From Anaerolineae bacterium (GTDB taxonomy: Bacteria; Chloroflexota; Anaerolineae; Aggregatilineales; J027): a DNA stretch of 64,000 nucleotides. The notes under the pieces were generated by a model. It did no database searches, was not told the DNA's origin, and saw nothing but the letters and a program-made list of their open reading frames with translations. Each line of letters starts with the position of its first letter. Positions within the stretch are counted from its first letter, which is position 1. Position numbers and translations under genes: made by a program. The stretch covers positions 1 to 64,000 of the forward strand of contig JAIOHL010000355.1 in the NCBI GenBank assembly GCA_019913005.1, given 5' to 3'. Of this stretch, positions 4,805-42,084 are shown in pieces.

Positions 4805-4817
4805 ATCGGAGTATAGG

Positions 4818-7022
4818 TTGAGCAAAAAAGCCGAACGTTATGTCCTCGCGTTTATCATCATCGGTTATCTCATTCTGGCAGGGAGTTATGCTCAAGGCCC
4901 ACTGTTTGAGCCACATGATGAGGATTTGCACTATGATTACATCCTTGTTTTGGCAAAAGAGCATGTGTTCCCGAACCCATATCCTGAAGAATGGACAGAA
5001 TATCTGCAACCCCCCGGCTATTATTTGCTGAATGCCCCCATTCTCGCTCTCCTGCCCGATCATGATTTTAAAGACCGCTACGAAGAGATGCGAAAAAATC
5101 CCTTTGCGGGCGAATTGATTGACATCCCCCACCAGCAAAATCGCAACCAGTATCTGCATGACCGCAGTGAATCCTTTCCTTACAAAGGCAACGATACAGC
5201 ACGGAATACCCAAGTGCTGCGCTGGTTTTCGATATTGTTAGGCCTGCTCACTTTATATTTCAGCTACCAGATTTATCAGATGCTGTGGCCCAGCCGCGCC
5301 TATCGAAGGCTGCTAGCACTTGGCATCGTTGCGTTCTGGCCGCTTTTCGTTCGTATGTTCGGGGCAATCAATAATGATAATTTGGTCTATCTGCTGGCAA
5401 CCCTCAGTCTCTATTTGGTGCTGCGCCAAATGAAGGACGGACCGTCGCTAAAACAAAACATCATCTTAGGGATCGTGCTGGGGACTAGTTTGATGACTAA
5501 ATCCTATACCGGGTTTCTCGCAATCCCAGTAGGGCTTTGGGTCGCCACTGATCGGCGCACTTGGCGGTATGTGCCGCTGATTCTTGCACTAACTCTTGGG
5601 ATCGGTGGCTGGTGGTATGTACGGAACGTCATGGTGTATGGAAATGCCACTTTTTACGATCACCCTCAGTTACAGGCTTGGTGGGTAAAACCCGGTGGCA
5701 GATTTTCATTAAGTTATGCGCTCGACACCTTTCCGTTGATCTTTCACCATTTCTGGGCACATTACCGCTTAATCGTCGTCCACCGACCTTTATACATGGG
5801 GTTCTATACCGTCAGCGTCATCAGCATAGTCGGTATGATCTTCCAAGCGTTCCGGTTCTCGCGCGTTATCTATCGTGAGAAGTGGTCGGTAGAACGTCGG
5901 TATGCCTTCAAACAAGCGCTGGTGGTCGTCGGATTTGTGGTGGGATCGTTTCTGATGATCTTTTATATTTGCGGCACAATCTACAGTGGTTATCAGGGCC
6001 GCTACGCGCTTGGAGCCATCGCAGGTATGGGGGCGTGTATGGCACTGGGCCTAGAGGGGTGGCTGCCAGAAAAAGTAAAACGACCTTTTGTATTGACCAG
6101 TATCACCTTTATGGCCGCGCTCTCGATGGTCATATTTGCAGGCTACTACCGATTTGTGTTCACCGTCTTTCCCCCGCCAAACAAAATTGAACATCCAATC
6201 GTGTATCGTTATGACAATACGGTGGAACTGATCGGTGTCAAAGAGATTTCAGTGGGTGGGCAGCCGGGCGACCTCGTTGAGATCGTGGGCTATTGGCGGG
6301 CGTTGGGTACTGTTACCAACCCCAACTATGTAGTATCAGTCACGGCGTTTGGCAGTACCGAGCTTCGTAAACACAGCTATCCGGGCGGTGGCAACATGAT
6401 AGCGACGGATTGGCGAGCAGGGGATGAATGGACTGAGCGCTACTTTATGAAGATTCCGCGTGATGCTGAAACACAGAAGGTTTATCCATTGAGCATCGGC
6501 CTCTTTGATGTGGTGACGGGTTATATCCCACCGATCACAGATGCCAATGGGCAAGAGGCGTTTCCGGTGGTCGGGCGATTCATCGTGCATGGGACGCCTG
6601 TCGCCAATCCCGCTTATGATTACACGCTTGGCAATATCATTGGCTTGACATCCACGAGTTTGCGGCGCAATGGTGATGATATTTCTCTATGTGTGGATTG
6701 GGTATCACTCAAGGCGACCTCCATTGATTTTCATTATTTTGTGCATGTTTATCAAGGTGAGGAGTATTTTACGCAAATTGACGGGCAGCCACGCAGCGGC
6801 GATTACCCAACAGGCGCATGGCTTCCCGGTGAGGTTATCAAAGACTGTATGACCATCAATGCCGCTGGACTCCCCAACGACGGTTGGTCGGTCAAGATAG
6901 GCCTGTATGACCCAACGAATTTACAGCGTCTCCCTATACATGATGAAGCGGGCAATGTCCTAGCAAACGATTGGCTTAGTTTGGTGATTGGGGAAAATGG
7001 AGCAGTTATTCCGCAGCCGTAG
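4818..7022 (+). CDS. GT-C-fold membrane glycosyltransferase-like protein
   Basis: 734 residues. A first membrane helix (about residues 8-26) is followed by HDED at residues 33-36; an acidic pair after helix 1 is the catalytic feature of GT-C enzymes such as GT39/ArnT and DUF2142 proteins. Roughly nine further hydrophobic segments reach about residue 455. The C-terminal third is a soluble, probably extracytoplasmic beta-rich region with two related modules, each opening with a VELIGV or NIIGLTS segment. The TTG at 4818 is preferred because GGAG stands about 6 bp upstream; the longer frame from 4743 overlaps the methyltransferase. It would transfer a sugar from a polyprenyl-phosphate donor on the outer face of the membrane, matching the GT2 gene that could make that donor. 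Acceptor unknown. Confidence 0.8.
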   Translation: MSKKAERYVLAFIIIGYLILAGSYAQGPLFEPHDEDLHYDYILVLAKEHVFPNPYPEEWTEYLQPPGYYLLNAPILALLPDHDFKDRYEEMRKNPFAGELIDIPHQQNRNQYLHDRSESFPYKGNDTARNTQVLRWFSILLGLLTLYFSYQIYQMLWPSRAYRRLLALGIVAFWPLFVRMFGAINNDNLVYLLATLSLYLVLRQMKDGPSLKQNIILGIVLGTSLMTKSYTGFLAIPVGLWVATDRRTWRYVPLILALTLGIGGWWYVRNVMVYGNATFYDHPQLQAWWVKPGGRFSLSYALDTFPLIFHHFWAHYRLIVVHRPLYMGFYTVSVISIVGMIFQAFRFSRVIYREKWSVERRYAFKQALVVVGFVVGSFLMIFYICGTIYSGYQGRYALGAIAGMGACMALGLEGWLPEKVKRPFVLTSITFMAALSMVIFAGYYRFVFTVFPPPNKIEHPIVYRYDNTVELIGVKEISVGGQPGDLVEIVGYWRALGTVTNPNYVVSVTAFGSTELRKHSYPGGGNMIATDWRAGDEWTERYFMKIPRDAETQKVYPLSIGLFDVVTGYIPPITDANGQEAFPVVGRFIVHGTPVANPAYDYTLGNIIGLTSTSLRRNGDDISLCVDWVSLKATSIDFHYFVHVYQGEEYFTQIDGQPRSGDYPTGAWLPGEVIKDCMTINAAGLPNDGWSVKIGLYDPTNLQRLPIHDEAGNVLANDWLSLVIGENGAVIPQP

Positions 7023-12047: not shown

Positions 12048-12590
12048 ATGAACGAACTCGACGACCACCCTAGCTCATACCTCTCACCCAAACTAGAGGG
12101 GCGTGTGTTCCCTGAAAAGGGCGGTCATGGTGCTTTTGCCCGCGAACTAATTCAGGCCGGAGAAGTCATTTCGGTCTGGGGTGGAAAAGTCATGACAAGG
12201 GCGGAAGTTGCCCGGCTCAATAATCCAGCGATAACGACACTTGCCGTCCAGATTGATGAGGACATCTTTCTGGTAACGACGAAGGAGGGTCCCGGCGATT
12301 GGGTCAACCATTCGTGCGAGCCAAATGCTGGTTTGCAGGGGCAAGTGACTTTAGTCGCCATGCGCGACATTCAACCCGGCGAAGAGGTTTGTTTTGACTA
12401 TGCCATGACCGATGGGTCGGTATATGATGAATTTACCTGCGCCTGTGGATCCCCTAAGTGCCGGGGATACGTCAGCGGCAATGATTGGCAAATTCCAGAA
12501 CTATGGGAACGCTACAGCGGGTATTTTTCACCCTATCTGCAAAAAAGAATTGAGCGTCTCCGCGAAGAAGCAACCGTTTCGGCTGTTTAA
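12048..12590 (+). CDS. SET-domain protein (putative protein lysine methyltransferase)
   Basis: 180 residues with a complete compact SET domain. GRVFPEKGGHGAFARELIQAGEVI opens the fold in the pattern common to SET proteins. NHSCEPN carries the conserved NHSC knot motif, and GEEVCFDYAM supplies the catalytic Tyr region. FTCACGSPKCRG is a post-SET CxCx4C zinc motif completed by the Cys of NHSC. SET enzymes methylate lysines; bacterial members have ribosomal or nucleoid proteins as known or suspected targets, but the target here is not visible. An AGGAG sequence precedes the ATG. A Rho-independent terminator follows at 12601. Confidence 0.88.
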   Translation: MNELDDHPSSYLSPKLEGRVFPEKGGHGAFARELIQAGEVISVWGGKVMTRAEVARLNNPAITTLAVQIDEDIFLVTTKEGPGDWVNHSCEPNAGLQGQVTLVAMRDIQPGEEVCFDYAMTDGSVYDEFTCACGSPKCRGYVSGNDWQIPELWERYSGYFSPYLQKRIERLREEATVSAV

Positions 12591-12600
12591 TGTCTCAAAA

Positions 12601-12634
12601 AAGGGCTGGCACGTGTATGTCAGTCCTTTTCCTT
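12601..12634 (+). terminator. Rho-independent terminator after the SET gene
   Basis: AAGGGCTGGCA (12601-12611) pairs with TGTCAGTCCTT (12618-12628) over 11 positions including two G-U pairs, with a 6-nt loop and TTTT following the stem. Confidence 0.75.
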
Positions 12635-12712
12635 AATAAATGACCGATGAGGTGAGTTGTGCAAAATACCAAATATCGCTCAAGAATGGGCTTTTAATCT
12701 TATAATAATTTT

Positions 12713-12788
12713 TTGACCATTTTGCACCCATATTGTATCCATATTGACATTTTGCACTATACATTGATGGCATTTGTCAATATTGACT
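12713..12788. promoter_or_regulatory. Repeat-rich operator candidate upstream of gltB
   Basis: Three repeat families overlap. TTGACCATTTTGCAC (12713-12727) recurs as TTGACATTTTGCAC (12744-12757). CCATATTG occurs at 12728-12735 and 12739-12746, an 11-bp period. ATATTGACA (12741-12749) is the exact inverse of TGTCAATAT (12775-12783). The cluster lies just upstream of the probable gltB promoter, a position suited to an activator. Confidence 0.5.
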
Positions 12789-12795
12789 AGATTCG

Positions 12796-12825
12796 TTGAG
12801 TTTCTGCCCCCACCTGCCCTATCAT
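12796..12825 (+). promoter_or_regulatory. Sigma-70-type promoter for glutamate synthase
   Basis: TTGAGT (12796-12801) and TATCAT (12820-12825) are separated by 18 bp, matching four and five of six consensus bases. Transcription would begin near 12832, leaving a leader of about 190 nt. Confidence 0.45.
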
Positions 12826-12842
12826 CTTTAACAATAACCGTC

Positions 12843-12871
12843 AACCAGCCTCGACTGAGGGTGGGTTTTTT
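12843..12871 (+). terminator. Terminator-like hairpin in the gltB leader (attenuator candidate)
   Basis: CCAGCCTC pairs with GAGGGTGG around a GACT loop with one mismatch, and TTTTTT follows at 12866-12871. It stands downstream of the candidate promoter and upstream of gltB, so it could attenuate that gene. Confidence 0.5.
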
Positions 12872-13023
12872 GCCCCCCAATTCCGGTTGGTTGTTCGTAC
12901 CGCTTTTCACAATTCACAAAATCATCATGTGCGAAGAGCAGCGAAAATCCGGCCAGTTAAGCCAAAGGAAACGGAACTAATTTGAAGACTTAGGGTTCTT
13001 TATTATCTTGCGAGGGCAGCACC

Positions 13024-16000
13024 ATGACCATTCCCAACATTCGTACCGATACCCCCCCTGACGCCCCGGATGGCCCAGAACATGACGCCTGTGCGCTTAT
13101 TATGAGCGTGCGTAAAGGCGGTGAAAGCACGTATGGAACATTAAAACGCGCGATTCATGCCCTAAGCCACATGGGTCACCGGACTGGCTTTGTCGAAGGA
13201 GAAGGTGACGGGGCAGGCATTCAGACCGACATCCCCCGCCAATTATGGGGCAAGAAATTAAGCGAAGCTGGTCTGCGTTCCTCCATCGCCACCGACTCCC
13301 GCTTCTGGGTGGGACACTGCTTTATCCCGGCCAATGAAGACTGGCGCGAAATCAGCGAAATCTTAAATGCCCATTTCAACGACGCAGGTTTAAATCTCCT
13401 GATTGCCGAGCCGGGGCCAGTCGTGATGAACGCATTGGGCCGCCAAGCCCGCCAAAATGCCCCACTGTTCATCCAATTAGCAGGGTATGGGGAAACTTCG
13501 GATGTGGACAATGTCTTGTTCCGTGTGCAGGCCGAAGTGGAAAAAATACTGCCGATTCATTTTGCCTCGCTGAGTTCGCATGTGGTCGTTTACAAAGTAC
13601 GCGGCTCAGTTGAAGTGCTGCCTCGTTTTTATCCGGATTTGCAAGATCGCACTTATTACACCGCAATGGCCTTATGTCATGCGCGTTATTCAACCAATAC
13701 CGCCTCAAGTTTCGAGCGTGTGCAGCCCTTCCCACTGATGGGGCATAACGGCGAAATCAACACCATCAGCCGTTTTCGTCAAGAGGCCGTGCAGATTGGG
13801 GCAGAACTTGACCCCAATAACTCCGACTCGCAAGACATTGACCGCACCCTCCAGACCCTCTGTGCCAAATATGGTTTAAGTGTTATTGAAGGTCTCGAAA
13901 TCCTCTTTCCCCCTGTCCCTTTTGAAGTTGAAAATATGCCCAAACCCCTCCAAGCAGTCTACAACCGTCTGCGCCAGTCCTTCGGGCCATACGCGCAAGG
14001 GCCAGCCGCGATTATTGCCCGCTATGCGAATATGGCGGTGGTCAGTGTGGATGCCCTCGGTTTGCGGCCTTTATGGTTTGTGGAGACTGAAAAAGAATTT
14101 ATCTTTAGCTCCGAACGTGGCGTGGTGCCGCTTGAAAACATGATGTGTGACCCACGCCCATTGGCCCCCGGCGAGAAAATGGCGGTGCGGCTCAATCGTG
14201 GTAAAAGCGTCGAAGTTTTTGATCATGCCGAAATCCGCCAATATGTCATGAAACAGGCCTTCCAGCGCGAAGTACCTCAATTTGCCGAACGTTATTGGTC
14301 AGATTGGAGCAGCTACAGCGTTCCCGGCGAGGTTCGTACACGTGGGGGAGATGGTGGAGGTGCCGCTCAGTCACTGGCTCAGGCCGAGGTTGCTGTAGAC
14401 ACTGCCCTGATGGAAGTTGCCACCCTTGCCGCAACCGTCGAGATGCCATGGCAATATGCCCAAGCCCGTGCCGTAGATGCGGTAGTGATGGCAGCGACAG
14501 GCTGGAACCGCGAACAAGTCCAAGAAATCGAATCGGTAGTAGACACCAGCGGTAAAGATTTGGTTGGCTCGTTGGGGCATGACGGCCCATTAGCCGTCTT
14601 GAGCAAAAACCGCGTCAACGTGGCGGATTTCTTCAAAGAGACCGTCGCCGTTGTTACCAATCCTGCCATTGACCGCGAACGTGAAGCTGAGGCTTTTTCG
14701 ACTCGTATGATTATTGGCGCACGTCCCGCCATCGGTGCCGCCCCTCACCCTGACGATATTTTGGTCGTTTTGGAAACCCCCATTTTATCAGGTGGGCATC
14801 CAACATTAGGCGACGCCGAATTGGTACGCTCGATAGCTGAACCCTATGGCACCATGAATATTGAAGAGCTGCTGGAGCGGTTTGGCAGCCGTGTGGCATG
14901 GCTCACGTTGGGTCTCTACCCCGGCGAAACCGCCAATGCCGCCATCAACCGCCTAGCGCATGAAGCCGTCAACGCGGTGCGCTCGGATGTGCAATGTCTC
15001 GTGCTAGACGATACCCAAACGCTTGAAGAAAATCTTGGCTGGCTCGATCCCCATCTAGCAGCAGGCATCATTGACCGTACCCTGCGCGAAGCCGATGATG
15101 AAATAAACCTGCGCCGCCGGGCCGGAATTGTCGTTCGCAGTGCCAGCATTCGTACCCTGCACGATGTCATTCTATTATGTGGCTTGGGAGCGGACGCCGT
15201 TAACCCCTATGCGATGTTCGTTGTGGCGATTGGGGCTGACAAAAAATCCAAGACCCTGACAGGCCAAGATTCCATCAAAGCCCAGCGTACCGTCTTGAAA
15301 AATCTAACGGCGGGTTTGGAAAAAGTAACTTCGACTATCGGCTGTCACGAACTGCGCGGTTATGGTCGCACCTTCAGTAGCATCGGTCTGGCCCCCAGCG
15401 TGGCAGGCATGTTGAACACCCCCAATTACTTCGGCAGTGAAAAGGTCGGCCTGACATGGGAACGCCTTGACCGCGAAGCCGATGAACGTGCCGCCGAATT
15501 ACGGGGTGAAGCCAAAGCCCAAATTGCGCGTGTGGATCGTTTCTATCCCAAATTCTGGAAAAAAGCTGAAGCGGTGGCACATGGCGAAATGTCACTGGAT
15601 GAATTTATCGAGATGTACCGCAATCTCAAAGAAGAAGTGCCGATTGCGCTGCGCCATATCATTGAAATCAAGCACCTAACCGACAGCATCCGGCCTGAAC
15701 AGGTCGAAATCGGCGTAGATTTTCATGATATGCCCCTCTTGATTAGTGCCATGTCCTTTGGGTCGCAGGGCGAATTGGCCTATCGTGCTTATGCTGAAGC
15801 TGCCAAGCGCCTAAATATCATCTGTGTCAACGGCGAGGGCGGTGAATTGTCCGATTTGATGAACCGCTACCACAACAATCGTGGTCAGCAGGTCGCATCG
15901 GGGCGTTTTGGTGTTAACGCCGAATTTTTGAACTCAGCCTATGTGATTGAAATCAAGATTGGGCAGGGAGCTAAACCGGGGGAAGGTGGGATGCTGCCTG

Positions 16001-17676
16001 CGTCGAAAGTCAGCCCACAGGTGGCCGAGGCTCGCCATACTACACCCTACGTCGCCTTGATTTCGCCCTCAAATAATCACGACCTGTACTCAATTGAAGA
16101 CCTCACCCAACTGATTGAGGAACTCAAGACGGTTAATCCTGAAGCCAAAGTCTCGGTCAAAGTGCCCGTTGTACCCGGCATCGGGGTAATCGCTGTTGGT
16201 GTCGCTAAAGCGGGAGCAGATATTATCAATCTGACGGGATACGATGGCGCAACTGGGGCGGCCCGTCGCCATTCGCTGCAATATGTCGGCTTGCCCACCG
16301 AAATCGGTATCATTCAAGCTCACCGCGCTCTAATTGAATCCGGCCTGCGTCATCGCGTCGAATTGTGGTGCGACGGTGGCATGAAGACAGGCAGTGATGC
16401 CGTCAAGATGATATTGCTCGGCGCGAATCGGATTGGATTTGCAACAATGGCGATGGTGGCGATTGGCTGCACCATCTGTCGGAAATGTCATGAAGGCACC
16501 TGTCATGTTGGCATCACCACCCATATCAAGACGGTGGAAGAAGCTACCGAAAAAGGCCTCAAGAGCTTTGTCCCCCGCGATTATGATATAGCTGTTGATG
16601 GAATTGTCCGAGTCTTTAACGTCATAGCCGATGAGATGCGCCGCCTTACCGCCCAATTGGGATCAACCTGCCTGCAAGACTTGGTGGGACGGGCCGACTT
16701 GTTGGAACAGGTAGCAGGTCTGGATATGGTTGATCTTTCGGCTATGCTTTATCACATGCCGATGAAACCCCGCCTGCTCTCCGAACCCGGCATTGGTCGC
16801 CGTCTGACCCGTCCGCGCAACAGCCTCACCCACACCATCAGCAATTTGATTTTTAGTGCGGTGCAGGATGGCGAACAGGAAGCCACCTATCAAGATGAGG
16901 TCATGGCCTATGACCGCGCACTAGGGGCATATCTGGCAGGGGAGATTGTCCGCAACCCGCGTATCGCCCAACGCCTCAATTGTGCCCATCTGAATTTTGG
17001 CCCATCCTCGATTGCAGGCAATGGCTTTGCGGCATGGACAACCGACCAACTCGACATTTTTATCGAAGGCGGGGCACAGGACGGAGTAGCGAAAAGCGCC
17101 AATGGTGGACGAGTGGTGGTCATGAAAGGCCTAAACCACAAAGGCACACGCTTGGATGGCAGTGTCGGCAAGAGTTTTGCTTATGGCGCTCAACGTGGCC
17201 TGCTCATCGTGCAAGGCAATGCCGATTCCCGTGCTTGTATCCGCCTATCCGGTGCGGATGTCATCTTTGGCGGCGAAATCACCGAACCGCTGGATGATAC
17301 CAGTGTCAACGTCGGCACCCGCGCCAATCTCAAAGGCTTCGCGTGCGAATATATGACTTCTGGACGTGTTATTATCATGGGCGACCCCGGCCCCTATGCC
17401 TTCGCGGGGATGACAGGTGGCACGGTCTATCAACAACTCACCCCCGAAATGGGCTTTGACGAAAATACGCTACGCCGTCGTTTTGCCAAAGGTGCAACCG
17501 TCACCATTCAGCCATTGGACGAGAGTGACATCACCCAACTGCGTGATTTGTTCGGCTACTACATTGAGGCTCTTGAACAAACGTCCCAAATCGAAGAGGC
17601 TGACCGGATTGTGGCCCTGATGGAACCGGGTACTCTGGCCCGCCGCTTTGTGAAGGTCGTGCCGGTAAAAAATTAA
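13024..17676 (+). CDS. gltB: Glutamate synthase large subunit
   Basis: 1550 residues, full length for the large subunit, which transfers the amide nitrogen of glutamine to 2-oxoglutarate to give two glutamates. The class II amidotransferase domain starts after a 22-residue propeptide with Cys23 in HDACAL, the expected mature N-terminal nucleophile. A central domain (PLAVLSKNR, VTNPAID) follows, then the FMN barrel with GYDGATGAARRHSLQ. The iron-sulfur motif CTICRKCHEGTCHVG keeps the C-x5-C-x4-C spacing plus one extra Cys. A C-terminal GXGXG beta-helix ends the protein. No gltD small subunit lies next to it; the next gene is on the other strand. It may therefore use ferredoxin or a distant small subunit. 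ATG is preceded by GAGGG. Confidence 0.95.
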   Translation: MTIPNIRTDTPPDAPDGPEHDACALIMSVRKGGESTYGTLKRAIHALSHMGHRTGFVEGEGDGAGIQTDIPRQLWGKKLSEAGLRSSIATDSRFWVGHCFIPANEDWREISEILNAHFNDAGLNLLIAEPGPVVMNALGRQARQNAPLFIQLAGYGETSDVDNVLFRVQAEVEKILPIHFASLSSHVVVYKVRGSVEVLPRFYPDLQDRTYYTAMALCHARYSTNTASSFERVQPFPLMGHNGEINTISRFRQEAVQIGAELDPNNSDSQDIDRTLQTLCAKYGLSVIEGLEILFPPVPFEVENMPKPLQAVYNRLRQSFGPYAQGPAAIIARYANMAVVSVDALGLRPLWFVETEKEFIFSSERGVVPLENMMCDPRPLAPGEKMAVRLNRGKSVEVFDHAEIRQYVMKQAFQREVPQFAERYWSDWSSYSVPGEVRTRGGDGGGAAQSLAQAEVAVDTALMEVATLAATVEMPWQYAQARAVDAVVMAATGWNREQVQEIESVVDTSGKDLVGSLGHDGPLAVLSKNRVNVADFFKETVAVVTNPAIDREREAEAFSTRMIIGARPAIGAAPHPDDILVVLETPILSGGHPTLGDAELVRSIAEPYGTMNIEELLERFGSRVAWLTLGLYPGETANAAINRLAHEAVNAVRSDVQCLVLDDTQTLEENLGWLDPHLAAGIIDRTLREADDEINLRRRAGIVVRSASIRTLHDVILLCGLGADAVNPYAMFVVAIGADKKSKTLTGQDSIKAQRTVLKNLTAGLEKVTSTIGCHELRGYGRTFSSIGLAPSVAGMLNTPNYFGSEKVGLTWERLDREADERAAELRGEAKAQIARVDRFYPKFWKKAEAVAHGEMSLDEFIEMYRNLKEEVPIALRHIIEIKHLTDSIRPEQVEIGVDFHDMPLLISAMSFGSQGELAYRAYAEAAKRLNIICVNGEGGELSDLMNRYHNNRGQQVASGRFGVNAEFLNSAYVIEIKIGQGAKPGEGGMLPASKVSPQVAEARHTTPYVALISPSNNHDLYSIEDLTQLIEELKTVNPEAKVSVKVPVVPGIGVIAVGVAKAGADIINLTGYDGATGAARRHSLQYVGLPTEIGIIQAHRALIESGLRHRVELWCDGGMKTGSDAVKMILLGANRIGFATMAMVAIGCTICRKCHEGTCHVGITTHIKTVEEATEKGLKSFVPRDYDIAVDGIVRVFNVIADEMRRLTAQLGSTCLQDLVGRADLLEQVAGLDMVDLSAMLYHMPMKPRLLSEPGIGRRLTRPRNSLTHTISNLIFSAVQDGEQEATYQDEVMAYDRALGAYLAGEIVRNPRIAQRLNCAHLNFGPSSIAGNGFAAWTTDQLDIFIEGGAQDGVAKSANGGRVVVMKGLNHKGTRLDGSVGKSFAYGAQRGLLIVQGNADSRACIRLSGADVIFGGEITEPLDDTSVNVGTRANLKGFACEYMTSGRVIIMGDPGPYAFAGMTGGTVYQQLTPEMGFDENTLRRRFAKGATVTIQPLDESDITQLRDLFGYYIEALEQTSQIEEADRIVALMEPGTLARRFVKVVPVKN

Positions 17677-40440: not shown

Positions 40441-42084
40441 ATGCGCTTAGAAATCCACAACATATCCAAGAGTTTTGGTCAATTAAAAGCGAATGATCAC
40501 ATTTCCTTCACTTTTGAAGGGGGTCGCATCTACGCGATTCTCGGTGAAAATGGCGCCGGCAAAAGTACCCTAATGAAAATCCTCAGTGGCTATCAATCAG
40601 CCACTAGTGGTCAAATCATCATTGATGGCAAACCCGCCCAAATCAATTCACCCCATCATGCCATTGCACATGGCATTGGAATGCTTTATCAAGACCCGCT
40701 TGATTTTGCCCCACTGACGGTGCTAGAAAATTACATCGAGGGTAAACCCTTCAACTTTTTTATGCGCCGCCGTGAAGCCGAGGCCGATCTTTTGGCTCGC
40801 TGCAAAATTTTGGGCTTCAGCCTCAACCCGAACGCAATGGTCGAATCTCTTACCGTTGGCGAACGTCAACAGCTAGAGATCGTGCGCCTGCTCTCATTAG
40901 GGGTCAGGATTTTGATCCTTGATGAGCCAACCACTGGTATCTCTGCCGAACAAAAATCGCAGTTGTTCCAAACCCTCAAAAATTTGGCCCGTGAACAAAA
41001 TATGATTGTGATTTTGGTTTCACACAAACTGGCCGATGTTGAGGAATTGTGTGAAGAAGTGTTGGTGCTGCGACGGGGCAGGTTGGTCGGACACCGTCTC
41101 TTACCTTGCGAAACCGACATACTGGTCGAAATGATGTTTGGCAAACGTATCAGCACGACAACGCCGCAACCTCTCTATACCGATAAACCCATTCTCAAAA
41201 TTCACAAGCTCAGTGTCCCCGCCCGCCTGTTCACGATTCAAAATCTCGATCTTGAGGTGCGAGAGGGTGAGGTCATTGGCTTGGCAGGACTGGATGGCAG
41301 TGGACAAGTTGAATTTATGCGTACTGTCGCCGGATTGGGGCGTCCGACATGGGCCGATCAACTGACAGCGATTATCGCGCTGGCAGGTATGTGGTGGGTC
41401 TTTGGCAAAATCCTTGACGAGTCCTCAGCCGTCCTTAATCTGGCCCGCATCGCCATCTTAATTTTAGTCCTCGGCCCAATGCTCAAAACCCTCTATTCGT
41501 ACATTCGCCAACGGGCTAACAACGATCAAGATGCCCAAATCATGTTGAATGGCAAGAGCATTGGCTGGCGTGGTTATCGGGATTTGCTGGAGCGGGGGAT
41601 CGCCTACCTTGCCGCAGGCCGATTGGAAGAGGGCCTTGTGGCTGGGTTAACGCTGGTAGATCATTCCGCGCTGGCAGATCGCAGCAGCCTGCCCCATGTC
41701 AATTGGTTACAGGCATGGCGGCGCACCAAACAAGCCATTACCGATTTTTCCATTAAGGGACAACCTTTCAGCCAGATTCAAACGCTCTCCGGGGGCAATC
41801 AGCAGCGGGTCTCATTATCCCTTCTGCCTACCAATCTACGCCTGATTCTATTGGAAAATCCGACTCGCGGACTAGATGTCGAAAGCGCCGGGCACATCTG
41901 GTCGCTGCTGCTCAATCGCCGTAAACAAGGGACAGCCATTATCTTTAGTTCACCTGACCTCGATGAGATTATTGATTACAGTGACCGCATTCTCGTATTC
42001 TCTTCGGGACAAACGACCCTCGTGGAAAATCCAGAGCAGATGACTACCGCCCGATTGGGTGAATTGATCGGGGGCAAATCTTGA
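40441..42084 (+). CDS. Double-domain ABC ATPase with a hydrophobic insertion
   Basis: 547 residues, importer ATPase of the BMP/RbsA type. Domain 1 is intact: Walker A GENGAGKST at 35-43, signature LTVGERQQLE, Walker B ILILDEPT. Domain 2 is degenerate as in relatives: GLDGSGQVEF replaces Walker A, LSGGNQQRV is the signature and LILLENPTRGLD is the Walker B region. Between them, about residues 303-365, is an insert with two hydrophobic stretches, LTAIIALAGMWWVFGKIL and LARIAILILVLGPMLKTLY, that read like a membrane hairpin. In canonical relatives this site is a short loop. It ends overlapping the first permease. Domain 1 would carry out ATP hydrolysis. Confidence 0.88.
   Translation: MRLEIHNISKSFGQLKANDHISFTFEGGRIYAILGENGAGKSTLMKILSGYQSATSGQIIIDGKPAQINSPHHAIAHGIGMLYQDPLDFAPLTVLENYIEGKPFNFFMRRREAEADLLARCKILGFSLNPNAMVESLTVGERQQLEIVRLLSLGVRILILDEPTTGISAEQKSQLFQTLKNLAREQNMIVILVSHKLADVEELCEEVLVLRRGRLVGHRLLPCETDILVEMMFGKRISTTTPQPLYTDKPILKIHKLSVPARLFTIQNLDLEVREGEVIGLAGLDGSGQVEFMRTVAGLGRPTWADQLTAIIALAGMWWVFGKILDESSAVLNLARIAILILVLGPMLKTLYSYIRQRANNDQDAQIMLNGKSIGWRGYRDLLERGIAYLAAGRLEEGLVAGLTLVDHSALADRSSLPHVNWLQAWRRTKQAITDFSIKGQPFSQIQTLSGGNQQRVSLSLLPTNLRLILLENPTRGLDVESAGHIWSLLLNRRKQGTAIIFSSPDLDEIIDYSDRILVFSSGQTTLVENPEQMTTARLGELIGGKS

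Follow-up and report, generated by a model that had tools for sequence, protein, structure and literature searches.

A palindromic operator shared by gltB, glnA, amt and a transporter gene points to a small nitrogen regulon in a genus of Anaerolineae

As judged from the sequence, the region upstream of gltB appears to hold a real and conserved regulatory element, and it would be part of a nitrogen regulon that is small, newly outlined and familiar in kind. More specifically, the region around 12741-12865 of the window (the whole stretch of 64,000 nucleotides analysed here) is quite likely the control region of gltB with sites for one dimeric nitrogen regulator, and gltB would share this regulator with glnA, amt and a transporter gene, called transporter X in the following. 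In the mechanism that we propose, a strong palindromic operator, TTGTCAATATTGACTA, lies directly upstream of the putative -35 hexamer of gltB with a weaker copy centred 39 bp further upstream; one dimeric regulator would bind the TTGTSWAWMTTSACAA operators at gltB, glnA, amt and transporter X, perhaps in a cooperative way where the sites are paired, and would activate under nitrogen limitation, as the operator positions suggest. Ammonium uptake and GS/GOGAT assimilation would then form one compact genus-level regulon. An earlier note on this DNA had proposed, from a cluster of repeats, the cooperative binding of a nitrogen regulator upstream of gltB, and this idea is borne out in part: a near-invariant footprint in the genus as well as the same kind of operator at glnA and amt speak for the site of a nitrogen regulator. 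The features of the locus are collected in Table 1.

Table 1. Features around the gltB control region, in window coordinates
Feature	Position	Strand	Remarks
SET-domain protein gene	12048..12590	+	Pfam PF00856; upstream neighbour, outside the element
Direct repeat, copy 1 (TTGACCATTTTGCAC)	12713-12727	+	present in window
CCATATTG pair	12728-12735 and 12739-12746	+	11 bp apart
Weaker operator, site 1 (GTATCCATATTGACAT)	12735..12750	+	39 bp upstream of site 2
Conserved regulatory block	12741..12865	+	site 1 right half, TTTTGCACTATAC, site 2, putative promoter, leader start
Inverted pair (ATATTGACA and inverse TGTCAATAT)	12741-12749 and 12775-12783		present in window
Direct repeat, copy 2 (TTGACATTTTGCAC)	12744-12757	+	present in window
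Main operator, site 2 (TTGTCAATATTGACTA)	12774..12789	+	16 bp; contains GTCAATATTGAC; identical in 5/5 genus genomes
Putative promoter	12796..12825	+	TTGAGT - 18 bp - TATCAT; weak 9/12 sigma70-like match; invariant in genus
Candidate structured leader	12842..12893	+	CAACCAGCC...GGTTGGTTG stem, early hairpin CCAGCCTC-GACT-GAGGGTGG, then T6
gltB, glutamate synthase large subunit	13024..17676	+	1550 aa; Pfam GATase_2, Glu_syn_central, Glu_synthase, GXGXG; presumed regulated gene

The comparison within the genus was based on five genomes, namely the window genome (G000) and four congeners (G001 to G004), among which G002 is the most distant. The assembly of the window genome amounts to 7.6 Mb in 365 contigs compared with 4.9 to 5.6 Mb for the congeners, and it may include foreign contigs. 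The conserved block, with the palindrome and the putative promoter inside it as well as ATATTGACATTTTGCACTATAC and the beginning of the leader, shows identities of 97.6, 96.8, 97.6 and 96.0% with the four congeners, where the lowest figure belongs to the most distant one. Compared with G002, identity drops to 58.4% at the third codon positions of gltB, to 23.4% in the spacer 12591-12735 and to 73.4% over the later leader. With the three closer congeners there is little such contrast: the conservation of the later leader (96.2 to 98.7%) and of the SET-domain gene (98.2 to 98.9%) is close to that of the block, and the weight of the footprint rests on the comparison with G002. The DNA of the SET-domain gene is by itself highly conserved, at 98 to 99% in the three closer congeners and 89.5% in the fourth. 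When the block was searched by BLASTN in 61 genomes, the significant matches were found only at the five gltB copies of the genus, with E below 1e-67, while the best other match among the matches listed has E 0.013.

At gltB itself, the two sites are spaced by 39 bp in all five genomes and they differ much in quality. The right half of site 1, ATATTGACAT, is invariant while its left half is variable; in G001 the site reads TTGTCTATATTGACAT, one mismatch from the consensus, and in four of the five genomes it is poor. With a matrix built without gltB (described below), site 1 ranks 19th in the window, and a sequence in the leader, TTTTCACAATTCACAA (12904-12919, 13.4 bits), outscores it in the window as well as in G003 and G004; this sequence also occurs in G001, G003 and G004, and is absent from the top-scoring sites of G002. 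Between the two sites, TTTTGCACTATAC (12750-12762) is invariant in the five genomes and as conserved as the operator. Only 7 bases separate the repeat region (12713-12788) from the putative promoter, which is the only forward promoter-like match in 12560-13060; on both strands, 2 such matches were observed vs 1.0 in shuffles.

As regulatory units, the repeats themselves are not supported. The second copy of the direct repeat and the inverted ATATTGACA pair are kept in 5/5 genomes, whereas the CCATATTG pair is seen in the window genome only and in none of the four congeners, and for the first copy of the direct repeat the number of changes is none in G003, one in G004 and two in G001, the copy being lost in G002. 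The phylogenetic footprinting upstream of gltB orthologues that the earlier note had called for gave a divided answer: a lack of the motifs, which that note would have taken as a refutation, is not seen within the genus, where the motif is kept throughout (5/5), but is seen in the regions compared outside it. gltB matches were obtained in 42 of 61 genomes and 30 loci were fetched, and the 14-bp palindrome core, allowing up to 3 mismatches within 500 bp of the match start, was found in 0 of 25 non-genus gltB upstream regions (one of which has only 26 bases upstream) and not in one further record. Because the motif was not seen at gltB in these other genera, it may not be a broad nitrogen system. 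The sequence TTTTGCAC is found upstream of gltB also in two of the fetched loci (L024 and L030).

The operator recurs at other genes. Having located amt and glnA in the five genomes via their Pfam families, we inspected the strand-corrected upstream regions and found a TTGTSWAWMTTSACAA-type operator upstream of both genes in 5/5 genomes. The palindromes have the same layout and are invariant, namely TTGTGAATCTTGACAA at amt, TTGTGTAAATTCACAA at glnA and TTGTCAATATTGACTA at gltB; the operator is identical in all five genomes at each of these three genes, while at transporter X it is identical in four of five, with one change in G003. A scan for TTGTSWAWMTTSACAA that tolerated up to one mismatch gave between 10 and 14 strand matches in each genome vs 1 to 2 for the reversed control, where a palindrome is often counted twice. 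Besides gltB, amt and glnA, the one place common to all five genomes is new, namely transporter X, a target that came from the genome scan alone. Seven other one-mismatch places were opened, six of them lying inside ORFs and one, in G001, between ORFs; some of these strings recur in three of the five genomes, and those opened are inside ORFs.

Transporter X is a 519-aa membrane protein with a Pfam CitMHS match over 431 aa, besides weak sub-threshold matches to the DASS and ArsB models and weak matches to two solved structures. The promoters of transporter X and amt can be aligned with each other: both show the palindrome ATGTTGATCAACAT, then operator 1, then operator 2 starting 31 to 33 bp on, and after 22 bp a TATCAT or TACCAT. 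The pairing of operators is not strict, because in four genomes amt has a variant of 17 bp as its first operator, the 16-bp form with one mismatch being present only in G002. Just upstream of operator 1, ATGTTGATCAACAT constitutes a second perfect palindrome at both amt (4811-4824 of locus L216) and transporter X (1042-1055 of locus L211); all that gltB shows at a similar place is GTTGAT with GG or AG after it (ATTGATGG in the window).

Considering that the operator pattern was first drawn from gltB, amt and glnA, only transporter X and the leave-one-out tests are independent of its discovery. A matrix leaving out gltB was made from five amt, transporter X and glnA sites in both orientations, with amt operator 1 in its G002 form. 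Its best match in the 64-kb window is 12774-12789, at 19.8 bits, followed by a match of 17.8 bits at 41192 inside an ABC-transporter-like ORF. When amt, transporter X or glnA was held out in turn, the held-out operator was the top match in its own locus of 9264, 7601 and 9001 bases, and the number of window positions scoring as high was 1, 0 and 1, respectively, the one being the gltB site in each case. With one mismatch allowed, the pattern is matched 3 times in the window when strands are counted separately, site 2 accounting for two of these matches, vs 0.02 expected in shuffles. At the level of the order, the exact motif is present in all five genomes of the genus, at 2 to 3 places each (14 in total), among the 154 genomes scanned, and outside the genus at 20 places in 18 of the 149 other genomes, of which 19 places were inspected for neighbouring ORFs; the reversed pattern gave 5 matches in the 154 genomes, a control that may understate the background. 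As far as these data go, the operator is concentrated in the genus and rare elsewhere in the order.

Some shorter or looser patterns were also scanned. The 10-mer CATTTTGCAC has 46 matches in the window genome vs 12 for the reversed control, and it was rejected as a regulon signal, with 25 of the 30 places fetched out of the 46 lying inside ORFs of at least 150 aa, open-ended ORFs included. TATTGACATTTTGCAC with at most 3 mismatches gave 85 to 145 matches per genome vs 16 to 31 for its reversed control, and TGTCAATATTGACT with at most 2 mismatches gave 52 to 72 vs 7 to 21. In a scan for additional members, the operator with two mismatches gave 83 strand matches in G002, corresponding to 71 places, 6 of them known operators, and G001 was covered in part. 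We fetched 48 of the other 65 G002 places together with 32 G001 places, and counted a place as covered when it lies in an ORF of at least 110 aa, a criterion that leaves 5 of 5 known operators tested uncovered. By this criterion 5 of the 80 fetched places are uncovered, all in G002 and none matching a fetched G001 place, while the eight G002 places with a G001 counterpart are all covered; no regulator gene with a conserved operator was found among these 80 places. One non-coding near-operator in G002, TTGTGAATTGTGACAA, lies 74 bp before an ORF that by eye resembles an NADH dehydrogenase. Another G002 near-operator, TTGTCAATATTTACTA on contig C2 around 61677, lies 69 bp before a gene that by eye is LacI-like, and has no counterpart among the fetched G001 places.

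The direction of the control can be approached from the geometry of the sites. The -10-like hexamer follows the centre of the proximal operator by 30 bp at amt and transporter X, by 36 bp at glnA and by 38 bp at gltB, where the hexamers at amt, transporter X and glnA were chosen by eye, and at glnA TACAAT was taken while TATTAT would give 50 bp. Taking the presumed start as about 12 bp after the first base of the -10-like hexamer, the proximal operators are located about 42 bp (amt and transporter X), 48 bp (glnA) and 50 bp (gltB) before the presumed starts, and because of these positions the regulator is probably an activator. A repressor that occupies the operators in times of abundant nitrogen, like GlnR of Bacillus, is possible at a clearly lower probability: a palindrome near the -35 region can block the polymerase, and gltB has a recognisable -35 hexamer adjoining its operator. 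At amt and transporter X, however, no clear -35 hexamer can be seen by eye, and the 30 bp from the centre of the proximal operator to the -10-like hexamer correspond to a typical position for an activator.

It is rather unlikely that the palindrome serves a global regulator, be it a redox regulator or another one (of Rex, LacI or LuxR/NarL type, for instance), with nitrogen genes that only happen to fall within its regulon. Such a reading would account for the half-site TTGTGAA, which is the Rex half-site, for the 7-2-7 layout, which resembles that of NarL-type sites, and for the two G002 near-operators before the NADH dehydrogenase-like ORF and the LacI-like gene, both assigned by eye; yet both of these near-operators are without counterpart among the fetched G001 places, and the Rex spacing of 4 is not present, as none of the four regions (gltB, amt, transporter X and glnA) comes closer than 4 mismatches to the pattern TTGTGAA-N4-TTCACAA.

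It seems improbable too that the conserved block is mainly an RNA element, with a folding gltB leader in control of termination or translation and with DNA repeats that are only incidental. The conservation does reach 12865, inside the leader, identity over the entire leader is 96 to 99% for the three closer congeners, and the stretch 12830-12900 has a folding z-score of -3.2 vs shuffles, with the early hairpin followed by a run of T; but the operator precedes the putative promoter and is found again at three further genes, the early hairpin is not among the matches of the terminator scan, and the T-run is interrupted in G002. In a consensus fold of the five gltB leaders, two-sided change was observed in 1 of 52 pairs, and because only this pair has such a change, the structure of the leader RNA is not established by the consensus fold. 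No Rfam family reached the gathering score in the 64-kb window, and the gltB upstream region gave two matches at chance level. Alternative hairpins are possible in the leader from 12842-12893 through 13023, and a four-pair hairpin just before the gltB start codon carries GAGG in its loop and shows one two-sided change. As a leader peptide, an ATG-started frame of 17 codons was picked out by eye in the gltB leader and discarded, as it is not kept in G002.

The statistics of the repeats deserve a separate account. The earlier note had listed direct repeats of TTGAC-ATTTTGCAC, 11-bp repeats of CCATATTG and an inverted ATATTGACA pair, and by sequence check and repeat search all of these elements were confirmed where it had placed them. 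The two copies of the direct repeat have in common the 10-mer CATTTTGCAC, starting at 12718 and 12748, and a perfect 12-bp palindrome, GTCAATATTGAC at 12776-12787, is to be added, which that note did not contain. In 5000 dinucleotide-preserving shuffles of the 76 bp, a direct repeat of at least 10 has p=0.020, an inverted repeat of at least 9 has p=0.009 and a palindrome of at least 12 has p=0.028, so that the single repeats are only modestly unusual. The fraction of bases in repeated or palindromic 8-mers is 0.66 with p=0.0002, and it was equalled by none of 6393 windows of 76 bp (step 10 over the 64 kb), where the maximum away from the site is 0.45. Because of this coverage, the repeat density at 12713-12788 exceeds chance, and the dense overlapping repeats claimed upstream of glutamate synthase are real. 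That they are chance repeats in an AT-rich promoter with no shared regulator is very improbable indeed, for the single-repeat p values of only 0.01 to 0.03 and the partly unconserved repeats are outweighed by the coverage, the footprint, the recurrence at nitrogen genes and the leave-one-out ranks.

Concerning the signalling side, the P-II family was searched for. The PF00543 model gave weak matches in three of the five genomes, two of them over the cut-off, and all at one diverged gene beside transporter X, whose upstream neighbours are an Na+/H+ exchanger and this 117-aa P-II-like protein. According to tblastn, all five genomes have the diverged gene. PF00543 revealed no canonical GlnB or GlnK in the five genomes, while the control matched 13 of 14 known genomes; the absence of a canonical P-II gene is likely and not proven, because in two genomes the diverged gene is there and the PF00543 search overlooked it. 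In the window genome the only P-II-like gene found is on contig C237, at 454-807 of locus L211, between the Na+/H+ exchanger gene and the CitMHS-type transporter X. We would tentatively suggest that the TTGTSAA-N2-TTSACAA operators, often paired, are read by a type of regulator new to nitrogen control which acts without a canonical P-II, and that the diverged P-II-like protein may be its signalling partner.

As for the literature, the Chloroflexi row in the RegPrecise 3.0 paper gives 5 genomes and the number 30, in a column apparently of TF regulogs (PMC3840689), and among these regulogs the system may already have been described under a different name. In the literature searched, at the level of titles and abstracts, there is no description of Chloroflexi nitrogen regulation, GlnR and NtcA included, nor does the perfect palindrome TTGTCAATATTGACAA occur in the texts searched; at this level, nitrogen control in this part of Chloroflexi seems to be hardly described. 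Now that an operator and four targets are defined, one DNA pull-down or one-hybrid screen could be enough to find the regulator.

In comparison with the known systems, the shared operator at glnA, gltB and amt by which a nitrogen-assimilation regulon is recognised was found in 5/5 genomes and again by leave-one-out. In the four regions, NtrC (TGCACC-N5-GGTGCA) has 4 to 6 mismatches at best, sigma54 (TGGCAC-N5-TTGCW) has 2 to 4 at best, and the CRP and FNR patterns have no intact match. In class II activation by NtcA and the CRP family, a dimer operator near -41.5 at glnA and amt serves activation under nitrogen limitation, and the sites described here would be alike in having a dimer operator near this position upstream of the same two genes and in serving activation under nitrogen limitation, while the half-site is different: GTA-N8-TAC has 1 to 2 mismatches in every one of the four regions, its best matches being away from the conserved operators. 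With Rex, whose operator is printed as TTGTGAA-N4-TTCACAA in the literature, the heptamer TTGTGAA is shared, while the spacing here is 2 instead of 4 and the target genes differ. The TGTNA-N7-TNACA box of the MerR-type regulators GlnR/TnrA has no common intact match across the four regions: its fewest mismatches are 2 at gltB (overlapping site 1), 1 at amt (overlapping the operator), 0 at transporter X and 2 at glnA, the last two away from the operators. In Bacillus, the TnrA box is a 17-bp inverted repeat, TGTNANAWWWTNTNACA, and GlnR and TnrA recognise TGTNA and TNACA half-sites upstream of nitrogen-assimilation genes (PMC4475385), in which they are similar to the operator described here; the Bacillus box, however, is 17 bp long with 7 bp between the halves, whereas the operator of this genus is 14 bp with 4 between them (TGTSA-N4-TSACA).
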